In this document: one piece after another, positions 1 through 7,385 of the stretch
How positions within the stretch are numbered: the stretch's first letter is position 1
How the letters are laid out: the number at the start of each line of letters is the position of its first letter
Assembly (NCBI GenBank): GCA_016219905.1
Contig: JACRKA010000138.1
Span: forward strand, 1-45,198
From: Verrucomicrobiota bacterium
GTDB taxonomy: Bacteria > Verrucomicrobiota > Verrucomicrobiia > CAIQCK01
Length of the DNA stretch: 45,198 bases
Reading direction: 5' to 3'
The notes under the pieces: generated by a model
What the model was told of the DNA's origin: nothing
What the model saw: only the letters and a program-made list of their open reading frames with translations
The model's database searches: none
Translations under genes and position numbers: made by a program

Positions 1-1
1 G

Positions 2-274
2 ATCGTCATCCTGGAGGCCGAGAAGGTGATCCGGCCGGAGCATCTGCCGCCGGAAATCCGCGGCGGCGCCGGCCCGCTGGCGGCGCGGGCGATTGAACTG
101 CCGCAGGACGGCATTGCATTGGCCAGCGTCGAGAGGGAGTTGATCCACCAGGCGATGGCCCGCGCCGGCGGCAACCAGACGCGCGCCGCGGAGTTGCTCG
201 GCATCGAGCGCGATGCGCTGCGACGGCGGCTGGCGAAGCACGGCTTCAACCAGGGCGATCCGGCATCCTCGTAG
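2..274 (+). CDS. sigma54-dependent (NtrC-family) response regulator, C-terminal fragment with Fis-type HTH; 5' end outside window
   Basis: Frame is open from base 2: [19 protein letters not shown]...[39 protein letters not shown], typical of the AAA+ C-terminal linker and Fis HTH of NtrC-type activators. Confidence 0.85.
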
Positions 275-295
275 CCGCTCGTCACGCTGCGGATC

Positions 296-403
296 TCACG
301 GGGGCGGCAGCTTGCTCAAGTGCCATACGGCGACCGCGGTGATGGCCATCATGAGCACAGCAATCAATGCCAGCGTCAGCCCCATCGTTTTTCGGGAGAT
401 CAT
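296..403 (-). CDS. possible 35-aa single-TM small protein
   Basis: MISRKTMGLTLALIAVLMMAITAVAVWHLSKLPPP, one hydrophobic helix; no homology information available. Confidence 0.3.
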   Translation of the reverse strand: MISRKTMGLTLALIAVLMMAITAVAVWHLSKLPPP

Positions 404-505
404 GAGTCGGTTCGGATGGCTTGTGGCAACAACGATGCCACGTTGATTCTGTGCGGCAATGGCCGTCCAAGCCCCCATCGGTAGCGCAGAAGCGAGCAAG
501 ACGAT

Positions 506-519
506 GCGCGGAAGCGCGC
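506..519. promoter_or_regulatory. candidate enhancer (UAS) dyad GCGCGGAAGCGCGC
   Basis: 5-bp inverted repeat about 100 bp upstream of the sigma54 -24 element; the equivalent sequence GCGTGGAAGTGCGC lies at 3899-3912, at nearly the same distance from the second promoter. Confidence 0.35.
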
Positions 520-605
520 TTTATTCGGGTCGCAGCCGCACCCCATTGACAGGATCCCAGCCGTTACCAGTTTGTCACCAACCTGTTGTAAACCCGCCGA
601 TAAAC

Positions 606-621
606 TGGCACCCGGCGTGCA
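606..621 (+). promoter_or_regulatory. sigma54 -24/-12 promoter, TGGCACCCGGCGTGCA
   Basis: GG-N10-GC spacing, strong match to TGGCAC-N5-TTGCW; duplicated at 3995-4010. Confidence 0.75.
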
Positions 622-3994: not shown

Positions 3995-4010
3995 TGGCAC
4001 CCGGCGTGCG
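3995..4010 (+). promoter_or_regulatory. sigma54 -24/-12 promoter, TGGCACCCGGCGTGCG
   Basis: GG-N10-GC; same core as 606-621, with an extended conserved context GCCGATAAACTGGCACCCGGCGTGC. Confidence 0.75.
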
Positions 4011-4268
4011 AAAAATACGGCATAGTGGATACACTCTGACTCAAGCGGCGGTTCCCCACGGGGGAGGGGGAAGGCCGTGATTCACATCAAAACCGGGGAA
4101 AGTGAAATACTGCGAAAAGGTGAAAAAAATGCCTTGCATCGCGGGAGCAGTTCGGGCAAGAAAGCCAGCGTTGTAGTGGATTCATTTCGATAACTCATGC
4201 GGCGGGGATTCTCGGTGCGGTGCATGACCGGTCGTTAGCCTTGGGGTTCCCTGCGAGAAAGGCACGTT

Positions 4269-5054
4269 GTGAAAAGACCAGGTTTGAAAGCAATCATAGC
4301 CGCGCTGGCAGTCGTCGGCGTCTGCGGTGTGATCGTCTCCTGCGTGACGATGGATCACGCGATGGTGCCGCCGCCGATGATCCCCGGCGCGACGTATGTC
4401 GGCATGGACATCTGCGCCCCGTGCCACGAGAAGCAAGTGCGCGACTTCAAGCTCACCTCACACGCCCGCCTGCAAATTGACAACGAGAAGGTCGTAGGCC
4501 AAGGCTGCGAGGGCTGTCATGGGCCGGGCAGCCTTCACGCCGAGGCCGGCGGCGGGCGCGGCAAGTTCATCGTCAACCCCAGCAAGGACCCGAAAGCCTG
4601 CTATCAGTGCCACCTCGACAAGCAGGCCCAGATGAACCTCCCCTATCACCACCCGGTGCGCGAAGGCCGGATGAGCTGCTCCTCCTGCCACGACCCGCAT
4701 GGCGCGGACATCAAGAAAGGAAAGAGCTTGATGATCGCGCGAGTCAACGACACCTGCGCCCAGTGCCACCGTGAGCAGACCCGACCGCACGTCTATGAGC
4801 ACGAGGCGCTGCGTGAGGGGTGCACCATCTGCCATCAGGTCCACGGCTCCGTGAACCAGAAGATGCTCATCGAGCGCAACCAGAATCTCTGCCTGAAGTG
4901 CCACGCGCAGGTGGGCATCGGCGGCGCTGTTGGCGCGAATCTCTACATCGGCGATTCAAACCACAATACGCGCGTGCGGCAGGGCACCTGTTACAACGCG
5001 GGTTGCCACACGGCGATCCACGGTTCCAACCTCAACGACCATTTGCGGTATTAA
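4269..5054 (+). CDS. octaheme c-type cytochrome, predicted lipoprotein; paralog of the cytochrome at 729-1499
   Basis: Same leader MKRPGLKAIIAALAVVGVCGVIVSC; 7 CXXCH motifs plus a C-terminal CYNAGCH (CX4CH). Confidence 0.9.
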   Translation: MKRPGLKAIIAALAVVGVCGVIVSCVTMDHAMVPPPMIPGATYVGMDICAPCHEKQVRDFKLTSHARLQIDNEKVVGQGCEGCHGPGSLHAEAGGGRGKFIVNPSKDPKACYQCHLDKQAQMNLPYHHPVREGRMSCSSCHDPHGADIKKGKSLMIARVNDTCAQCHREQTRPHVYEHEALREGCTICHQVHGSVNQKMLIERNQNLCLKCHAQVGIGGAVGANLYIGDSNHNTRVRQGTCYNAGCHTAIHGSNLNDHLRY

Positions 5055-5067
5055 TCGGAGAATCCCC

Positions 5068-7188
5068 ATGAACAGCGCTCTCTGGAAATCATTGATGGCG
5101 GTTCTGACGATGCTGGCGTTGGCCACCGTGGCGCCCGCGGCGGACACCGGGAAGACCAACAGCCCAGGCAAGGAGGAGGAACCCGAGCCGAACTTCTTGA
5201 TCACGCCGCAGGTGCGGATGATCCAGGTTGACGGCGACAAGCATAAGTTCCGCGAAGACTACTGGATGCAGGATGGCTGGACGGGCGGCATCGAGGAGTT
5301 CTCCTGGCACCAGATGTTCGGCGCGAAGAAGGACACGCTGCTGGAGATCGAAGCCCGCGGCCTCTACGACGACGACGACTACATGATGAAGCTCCAATTG
5401 GTGAAGCCCGACTTCGGTTTCGTGCGGACCGGCTTCACGCAATACCGGAAGTATTTCGATGACACGGGCGGCTACTATGTGCCGTTCAGACAGCCGTATT
5501 TCGATCTGCAACAAGACGTGAGTCTCCTGATGGGCAACTGGTATGTGGACCTCGGCCTGACCATTCCCCACTGGCCCAAGATCACGTTTGGCTTTGAGCA
5601 CCAGTCCAAGGAGGGTGACAAGTCCATGCTTGAATGGGGCACTGTAGCGCAGACCATCAGCGTCCCGGCCACGTCGGTGACCAAGAACATTTACCCGAAC
5701 GTGAAGAGCATCTATGAAAGCGTGGATATCTTCAAGGCGGACGTGGAGTATGACATCGGCAAGGTCCACATGGCCGACCAGTTCCGCTTCGAATCCTACG
5801 ACAACGACACCACGCGGGCGGACGACACCGGCATCAACCTGACCACCGGAGTGTTCAAGCCCGCCAGAATCCGGGAGGATTTCAGCCACCAGCAGTTCTC
5901 CAACGCCTACTTCGTGGAAAGCCACATCCACGACAAGGTGTATGTCTCCGCCGGCTACTTGTATGTGGACATGACAGGCGATGCGGACTTCAACATGGCC
6001 ACTTTCTATGGCGTCGGCACCCCTGTAGCGGGAACTGACAAGTTCTGGCTTATCAGAGATGCCAAGTTGAATCAGGATTCGCACGTGCTCAACGCCAGCG
6101 TCATGTTTGGCCCGTTCTGGGGCACCACCCTCTACGCCGGCGCCCAGGTCGAGGAGACCTACACGGACGCCTTCTCCAATTCGGACCATCGGGAAGGTGT
6201 CGGGCCATCCAGCGTGGTGTTGGCGGACACTTCCACCGACAAGGGGCGGGTGCAGGAGAACGCCGGCATCCGGTTCACCAAGATCCCCTACACGGTCATC
6301 TATGGCGAAGGCCGGTGGGTTCGTGAAAGCATAGATGTCTATCGCAGCGTGATCGAAGGAGATGGTGCGGCCGAGCTTGAACAGAGGACCGACGGCGATA
6401 TCGAACGCGACGAATACGTCGCCGGCTTCAACACCTCCCCCATCCGCCGGGCGTCGCTGACCGGCCAATACCGCAACAGCTACCGGCGCAACAGATACGA
6501 CCACGAAATTGACTTCGAAAGCGGTTACCCGGCCTTCATCACCGACCAGGAGTTCCAGACGCACGAGATCAGCGCCAAGCTCACCGTCCGTCCGCACAAT
6601 CGGGTGACGGCCAGCTTGAAGTTCCAGATGGTTGACACCGACATTGACACGGATACGCAAACGTTGAGCGCCGCTGTTCCTGGCGGCAACGTCAACGCGG
6701 CCAACTATCGCGCCAAGATCTACAGCGCCAACGTGACGTTCACCCCGATCAACCGGCTCTACCTGAGCGGTTACTTCTCCCTGACCGATTCGCAGACCGT
6801 CGCGTTCGACAACTACTTGAACGCGGTCCAGCCGTCCAAGAATGACAGCTATACGGCCATGGGATCCGCCGGCTATGCGATTGACGACAAGACCGAAGCC
6901 ACGGTCGAATACATGTATCAGCGGGTCTTCACCTTCGACAACAACGGATGGAGCAGCAACGGCCGGCCGCTCAGCTTTACTCCCGGGACGGTCAACGTGG
7001 ACGCCGGCATGCCTTTGGGCACTGACTCTACCCGCCGCATGTTCTCTGCCGGCATCAGCCGCCGCATCACCAAGAACATCACCGCCCGCCTGCGCTACGG
7101 TTACTTCCAATACGATGAACCGAGCGGCGGCAACGTCAACGACTACCTCGCCCACATGGCGATGGCCTCCTGCGCCATCCGGTTCTAA
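5068..7188 (+). CDS. MtrB/PioB-family outer-membrane beta-barrel, paralog of 1586-3748
   Basis: Signal peptide MNSALWKSLMAVLTMLALATVAPAA; 706 aa barrel-like sequence ending ...YLAHMAMASCAIRF; shared motifs (DKxKFREx, YYDxTGxYYxP, GFEHxSKEGDxxM) with the first porin. Confidence 0.8.
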   Translation: MNSALWKSLMAVLTMLALATVAPAADTGKTNSPGKEEEPEPNFLITPQVRMIQVDGDKHKFREDYWMQDGWTGGIEEFSWHQMFGAKKDTLLEIEARGLYDDDDYMMKLQLVKPDFGFVRTGFTQYRKYFDDTGGYYVPFRQPYFDLQQDVSLLMGNWYVDLGLTIPHWPKITFGFEHQSKEGDKSMLEWGTVAQTISVPATSVTKNIYPNVKSIYESVDIFKADVEYDIGKVHMADQFRFESYDNDTTRADDTGINLTTGVFKPARIREDFSHQQFSNAYFVESHIHDKVYVSAGYLYVDMTGDADFNMATFYGVGTPVAGTDKFWLIRDAKLNQDSHVLNASVMFGPFWGTTLYAGAQVEETYTDAFSNSDHREGVGPSSVVLADTSTDKGRVQENAGIRFTKIPYTVIYGEGRWVRESIDVYRSVIEGDGAAELEQRTDGDIERDEYVAGFNTSPIRRASLTGQYRNSYRRNRYDHEIDFESGYPAFITDQEFQTHEISAKLTVRPHNRVTASLKFQMVDTDIDTDTQTLSAAVPGGNVNAANYRAKIYSANVTFTPINRLYLSGYFSLTDSQTVAFDNYLNAVQPSKNDSYTAMGSAGYAIDDKTEATVEYMYQRVFTFDNNGWSSNGRPLSFTPGTVNVDAGMPLGTDSTRRMFSAGISRRITKNITARLRYGYFQYDEPSGGNVNDYLAHMAMASCAIRF

Positions 7189-7262
7189 ATCGGAATTTTG
7201 TCTTCTTGGTTCGGCACAATAATTTCAGGCCGCCCAGTTGCGTCTCCTTGGAGCGCAATCAT

Positions 7263-7307
7263 TCAGCCCGGAGTTGCCTGTTCGCACGGCACTCCGGGCT
7301 GATTTTT
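7263..7307 (+). terminator. intrinsic terminator at the end of the second porin-cytochrome module
   Basis: TCAGCCCGGAGTTGCC ... GGCACTCCGGGCTGA stem (one bulge) followed by TTTTT. Confidence 0.85.
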
Positions 7308-7385
7308 CCAGCCGCAGCCCGCCGGGAAAAGTGCTGACATCCGCGCCGGCCGGCCGCAACATCCGGCTTCGTTCCCGAAGCCACC

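Follow-up and report, generated by a model that had tools for sequence, protein, structure and literature searches.

Two octaheme cytochrome–barrel modules in a Verrucomicrobiota genome and their predicted sigma-54 regulon

The locus

The 45,198-nucleotide stretch analysed here (the window) opens contig C33 (JACRKA010000138.1) in the 4.88 Mb draft metagenome-assembled genome (MAG) of a Verrucomicrobiota bacterium (GCA_016219905.1), which is 89% complete. Its first part carries two successive modules, each a multiheme cytochrome gene followed by the gene of a large outer-membrane barrel, which together form candidate electron conduits. A first-pass annotation of this DNA had described the C-terminus of an NtrC-type activator, two modules each made of a sigma-54 site, an octaheme cytochrome and a barrel of ~710 amino acids (aa), and one strong terminator closing both. 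All of these elements were recovered, at the following positions.

2–274, + strand: NtrC-type response regulator, C-terminal part with a Fis-type helix-turn-helix (HTH_8, E 1.7e-15)
483–498, + strand: upstream enhancer dyad of promoter 1, AGCGCAGAAGCGAGCA, score 9/12
505–520, + strand: downstream enhancer dyad of promoter 1, TGCGCGGAAGCGCGCT, score 11/12
606–620, + strand: sigma-54 –24/–12 promoter 1, TGGCACCCGGCGTGC
713–785, + strand: cyt1 leader and signal-peptide DNA, 97% identical to 4253–4325, suspected gene conversion
729–1499, + strand: Cyt1, octaheme MtrA-like cytochrome, probable lipoprotein, GTG start (6r2q_A, E 5.2e-25)
1586–3748, + strand: Barrel1, 720 aa, 26-strand MtrB-like outer-membrane barrel (model pLDDT 80.5; 6r2q_B, TM 0.62/0.68)
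3898–3913, + strand: single weaker enhancer dyad of promoter 2, CGCGTGGAAGTGCGCT, score 9/12
3995–4009, + strand: sigma-54 –24/–12 promoter 2, TGGCACCCGGCGTGC; leader ~140 base pairs (bp) longer than in copy 1
4253–4325, + strand: cyt2 leader and signal-peptide DNA, partner of 713–785
4269–5054, + strand: Cyt2, octaheme MtrA-like cytochrome, probable lipoprotein, GTG start (6r2q_A, E 1.5e-32)
5068–7188, + strand: Barrel2, 706 aa, 26-strand MtrB-like outer-membrane barrel (model pLDDT 86.5; 6r2q_B, TM 0.62/0.67)
~7263–7302, + strand: intrinsic terminator hairpin followed by a T-run (–30.2 kcal/mol, z –5.9)

The contig begins at base 1, and the regulator gene is therefore cut off at the window start.

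Cytochromes and barrels

Cyt1 carries eight CXXCH heme motifs; Cyt2 carries seven together with one CX4CH, the pattern of 118 of 120 relatives. A lipobox-like sequence stands at the N-terminus of both, as in 103 of the 120 relatives, in agreement with the earlier remark that both cytochromes look lipidated. Comparison with the MtrA sequence of Shewanella baltica (6r2q_A, which the PDB sequence file lists as 'Cystathionine beta-synthase') gave a clear match for each, at the E values listed above, and the best-matching part of MtrA was residues ~176–325 in both cases. The decaheme NCBIfam models DmsE and GSU2203 returned 163 and 161 of 192 bits and 178 and 177 of 325 bits, respectively. These scores lie under the curated cut-offs and the models require ten hemes, against eight here, which places the two cytochromes outside both families. 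The resemblance, together with a TolC/HlyD/AcrB operon downstream, gives some ground for a different job, either service to a soluble or periplasmic-facing acceptor (for example an extracellular enzyme of the dimethyl sulfoxide reductase type, a DmsE/DmsF-like use) or efflux-linked redox detoxification. Neither the window genes that were checked nor the C32 module described below showed a molybdoenzyme, and the efflux operon is separated from the conduits by the strong terminator and the gene of an ECF sigma factor; we regard such a job as quite improbable.

The barrels were modelled with AlphaFold2 from family alignments. Each model has 26 long strands; the first strands are short, and a helix (58–65) lies between strands 1 and 2. 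The top PDB structure match of both was MtrB (6r2q_B, TM 0.62–0.68), with TonB-dependent receptors well behind at TM ~0.4. In MtrB, too, there are 26 strands, the first of them shorter, and a small helix lies between strands 1 and 2 (PMC7198977). Sequence search gave no match of the barrels to MtrB, and a profile of the barrel family gave zero matches to PDB sequences. The fold comparison alone provided the link, and it ties these Verrucomicrobia barrels to MtrB in a way unseen by the sequence searches run in this analysis. One relative, P0237, passes the Pfam model MtrB_PioB (PF11854) at 25.6 bits. Barrel1 has only nine detected relatives, itself excluded, and a weak match to Porin_4. The latter and the missing sequence match to MtrB would suit ordinary porins or TonB-type receptors that neighbour the cytochromes by chance; the 26 strands, MtrB as the best structural match for both models, and a cytochrome pairing conserved across many families of the class make this reading very improbable.

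That pairing was followed in a class-wide survey of 390 genomes, 81 of which have the cytochrome. The barrel lies after the cytochrome in the ~50 Verrucomicrobia loci examined. The linkage is thus conserved among the neighbours in related genomes, and barrels of an unrelated porin type that do without a cytochrome partner are not what the survey found.

The first-pass annotation had noted that no surface cytochrome is encoded nearby. This is correct for the window; neither it nor contig C32 encodes an MtrC-type surface decaheme cytochrome, which leaves the locus short of the three-part MtrCAB arrangement. The remark does not extend to the relatives, as a 9-heme, 831–915 aa surface-type cytochrome precedes the pair in G055, G061, G032 and G048 (the last on a contig cut upstream), nor to the rest of the genome, which encodes OmcE-like cytochromes elsewhere. 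The 9-heme protein was not found in the host genome, and this is weak evidence of absence given the completeness of the MAG. At L100, L101 and L107 an open reading frame (ORF) resembling radical-SAM proteins, with a CNLECxHC motif, follows the barrel (~7240, 11974 and 11793, in conduit orientation). The loci with this ORF are those carrying the 9-heme surface-type cytochrome, and its product presumably resembles heme-synthesis enzymes.

Regulator, kinase and promoters

Contig C32 overlaps the window end to start: its final 157 bases agree with window positions 1–157 at 150 of 157, and it ends within an NtrC-type regulator gene. Judged by this overlap, C32 probably adjoins the window start and would carry the remainder of the regulator that the window cuts off. 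Its order begins with a sigma-54 site (5018), a tetraheme protein, an FeS protein, NrfD and a NapC/NirT-type hexaheme protein, continues with a multiheme-cytochrome b561 protein, a 9-heme protein, a Rieske protein and cytochrome b, and ends with a C554-type tetraheme protein, a sensor kinase and the regulator. The sensor domain of the kinase is PF21563, with 3b42 as a solved relative; the protein also has a single CXXCH and is thus likely to hold a periplasmic c-heme sensor. The same kinase–regulator pair lies beside the conduit in six relatives (G003, G004, G040, G055, G061 and G032), and the gene order in G040, kinase–regulator–cytochrome–barrel, is the one that the C32 junction would give the host genome.

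An identical 15-mer, TGGCACCCGGCGTGC, precedes each cytochrome gene (606–620 and 3995–4009) and reads TGGCAC-N5-GTGC, with the correct –24/–12 spacing. The window holds three matches to TGGCACN6TGC against 0.59 expected; the third, at 37074 on the – strand, lies within an ORF, is without an enhancer, and was taken as chance. The whole genome has 26 sigma-54-like sites, and rpoN is present on contig C303. Strict TGGCAC-N6-TGC stands 5′ of every conduit operon of the kinase–regulator group, the second copy in G001 excepted, and at none of the other loci. Membership of G001 and G048 in this regulated group follows from cytochrome relationship, the regulator not being visible on their stretches, and L106 bears a different regulator (36% identity).

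A dyad, TGCGYG-N4-CRCGCA, emerged when the DNA preceding 11 promoters was read. These promoters come from 9 genomes; ten belong to conduit operons, both window promoters included, and the eleventh is C32:5018. The dyad usually occurs as a pair with a spacing of 22 bp, its copies standing at roughly –101 to –104 and –123 to –126 relative to the –24 box. Strict counting of 5-mer palindromes did not clearly recover this enhancer. Promoter 1 has the tandem dyads at –101/–123 and promoter 2 its single weaker dyad at –97, all within the 80–150 bp expected for upstream activator sites. Outside the regulated group the tandem dyad occurred in 0 of 39 conduit loci, where the sigma-54 site is likewise absent. 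Dyads accompany four of the 26 genomic sites, namely 606, 3995 (weakly), C32:5018 and C9:19551, most of the others being inside ORFs. A perfect enhancer-type dyad, TGCGCGGACTCGCGCA, was also seen at C32:14454–14469, just 5′ of the gene for the C554-type tetraheme protein; no site of the sigma-54 type lies near it.

Chance matches, with the operons controlled in some other way, were weighed as an explanation of these sites and dyads. A single dyad with one mismatch allowed is common (260 places in the genome; the reversed control gave 210) and uninformative alone. The tandem dyads, on the other hand, stand at a fixed distance from –24/–12 at the 11 promoters and, in the G000 sequence, only there, and we give chance hardly any credence. 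Predicted sigma-54 and enhancer-dependent control of the conduit operons is supported by the sequence, and more strongly than had been claimed: the enhancer is conserved, and a kinase–regulator pair accompanies the conduits.

A further operon with the enhancer

The enhancer that scores best among the four dyad-bearing sites is that of C9:19551, 5′ of genes for CcsA (PF01578, cytochrome c maturation), an OmcE-like tetraheme protein, an NHL-repeat protein and a pentaheme protein. The CcsA promoter shares the sigma-54 site and the tandem dyads of the window. This operon was chosen by its regulatory DNA and then found to encode cytochromes, which makes it a good check of the model. The tetraheme protein matches 7tfs_A at E 2.2e-19, 7TFS being the OmcE filament (PMC11936953). 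Contig C369 holds a second OmcE-like protein, with 11 hemes and an N-terminus matching 7tfs_A at E 2.9e-31; no promoter of the sigma-54/dyad type was found at its gene. Both proteins qualify by these matches as homologs of the OmcE filament subunit, and filament formation is predicted. The C9 region (L070:3493–11049) encodes a C554-type tetraheme protein, ResB, CcsA, the OmcE-like tetraheme protein, the NHL and pentaheme proteins, and a cut-off ORF of 599+ aa at the contig end, with no PDB match. The C369 region (L068:350–5844) encodes an NHL-repeat protein, the 11-heme OmcE-like protein, a 9-heme protein and a protein of 405 aa that matches no Pfam family.

Origin of the two modules

Cyt1 and Cyt2 are 48% identical and Barrel1 and Barrel2 22%, and Cyt1 sits on a long branch in the tree. 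The enhancer–promoter regions of the two modules are ~75% identical, and a 73-bp stretch of leader and signal-peptide DNA reaches 97% identity. A recent tandem duplication was rejected on the barrel identity. Of the tandem duplication in the first-pass annotation there remain two modules side by side, each with its own regulatory DNA. Proteins that have diverged strongly, yet with leader DNA nearly identical, suggest gene conversion. The simplest reading is that the modules are old or separately acquired, their promoter, leader and signal peptide having probably been homogenised by recombination. G001 has its own separate, younger pair, the second copy of which lacks both sigma-54 site and enhancer. 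In the window, the weaker single dyad and longer leader of promoter 2 mean that the modules may differ in expression level; different potentials or substrates for the two conduits are speculation.

Proposed pathway

The computed genes, folds, promoters, enhancer and co-distribution favour, with a probability of about 0.72, two porin–cytochrome electron conduits within a sigma-54 extracellular-respiration regulon that also includes the C32 module and the CcsA/OmcE-like operon. The NrfD, NapC/NirT and Rieske–cytochrome b multiheme module of C32 would oxidise quinol, and multiheme cytochromes would carry the electrons across the periplasm. The octaheme cytochrome, in or under the 26-strand barrel, would pass them through the outer membrane, and we infer that the two form a conducting complex. 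Surface cytochromes, possibly an OmcE-like filament, would accept the electrons. For the control of this pathway, the membrane kinase, with its periplasmic c-heme sensor domain, would phosphorylate the NtrC-type regulator. The regulator may then bind the two 16-bp dyads, 22 bp apart and ~101–126 bp 5′ of the sigma-54 promoter, and jointly activate the C32 module, both conduits and the operon of CcsA and the OmcE-like protein. The arrangement suggests that a redox or ligand signal in the periplasm turns on the outer-membrane wiring. The sigma-54-inducible electron conduit first proposed keeps its architecture (MtrA homology, 26-strand MtrB-like barrels, linkage) and its control; its duplication was overstated. 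We propose only tentatively, and with some doubt, that the pathway is a filament-ended variant of MtrAB with one heme-sensing sigma-54 switch for a quinol-oxidising module, two lipidated octaheme–barrel conduits and an OmcE-like filament, the last replacing the MtrC-type surface cytochrome; if this is true, the regulatory circuit of such a pathway is readable in DNA.

The direction of electron flow cannot be read from sequence, and outward export is what we infer. Barrel–cytochrome pairs work in either direction in known bacteria (PioAB, MtrAB), and the quinone-level C32 module (NrfD, Rieske–cytochrome b) could in principle reverse, so that the conduits might carry electrons inward from extracellular Fe(II) or another donor in the manner of PioAB. 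Set against this, the OmcE-like filament cytochrome that shares the enhancer and the MtrC-like multiheme proteins in the operons of relatives resemble metal- and humic-reducing systems. We consider inward flow unlikely.

Several observations weigh against the outward-respiring regulon. Cyt1 and Cyt2 have eight hemes, against ten in MtrA. Both barrels fall below the PF11854 cut-off and a whole-genome search was also without a match; the relation to MtrB drawn in the first-pass annotation holds by modelled fold (6r2q_B best) and fails by that profile. Promoter 2 has one weak dyad only, at –97. The mean best dyad score of 11.0/12, against 8.52 ± 0.23 in shuffles, is an optimistic comparison because the consensus was drawn from the promoters that it scored; three findings are independent of the consensus, namely the dyad position and spacing, fixed across promoters, the restriction of dyads to four of the 26 genomic sites, and the lack of the tandem dyad in all 39 loci outside the group. 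The C32–C33 overlap contains seven mismatches, five of them residue-changing, and two regulator paralogs are thus possible. Finally, the genus-mate G005 is without the cytochrome (its genome is 85% complete).

Relation to known systems

Clusters of an octaheme cytochrome and a porin were reported from Verrucomicrobia by He et al. in 2017 (PMC5615132), and the conduit itself is thus of a known kind. Those clusters share with ours the phylum and the octaheme cytochrome beside a large porin, which in some of them is accompanied by an extracellular multiheme cytochrome (PMC5615132). The present pairs fit, in a comparison by description, the definition used there of an octaheme cytochrome beside a porin of at least 20 transmembrane strands. 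The text of that report names no sigma factors, whereas the present locus has two tandem conduits, a sigma-54/c-heme kinase circuit and a defined enhancer. Shewanella MtrCAB (6R2Q, PMC7198977) has the homologous cytochrome MtrA and a 26-strand barrel with the same short first strands and helix between strands 1 and 2; it differs from our locus, which has eight hemes, a probably lipidated cytochrome, a barrel under the MtrB_PioB cut-off and no MtrC gene.

Other Verrucomicrobia barrels, those with a PSCyt1 domain (PF07635), are homologous to the present ones and have the same octaheme partner. Outside the sigma-54 group the barrel carries an N-terminal CXXCH at 22 of 38 conduit loci (e.g. L103–L119), and within the regulated group none of the 11 barrels does. 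In the homologs scanned this motif is the PSCyt1 domain, and such a barrel would be a covalently heme-tagged porin. The Geobacter conduit OmaB–OmbB–OmcB also combines an octaheme periplasmic cytochrome with a barrel of ~700 aa; the likeness is one of general description, not of sequence, and the window locus is without an OmcB-like surface cytochrome.

RpoN of Geobacter sulfurreducens influences extracellular-electron-transfer cytochromes, with TTGGCACGGTTTTTGCT as the sigma-54 consensus, and the passages of that report consulted contain no circuit of c-heme kinase, NtrC-type regulator and tandem dyads at a porin–cytochrome operon (PMC2725144). In the open-access literature searched, outside which most subscription papers lie, we found neither a heme-kinase/NtrC-type regulator/enhancer circuit for such a conduit nor a report tying OmcE-like filaments to Verrucomicrobia conduits. 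The new part is the regulation. Soils, bogs and groundwater commonly harbour Verrucomicrobia, and we found no report on the control of their suspected extracellular respiration. Enhancer, promoter and heme-sensor kinase together mark the genes of the pathway and allow regulon prediction in uncultured genomes.

Neighbouring genes

Directly past the conduit locus (window 7386–14861) lie an ECF sigma factor, a small ORF (8068–8310, no Pfam match) and an efflux operon of the TolC/HlyD/AcrB type (RND). Mfd and a PPIase are also encoded downstream.

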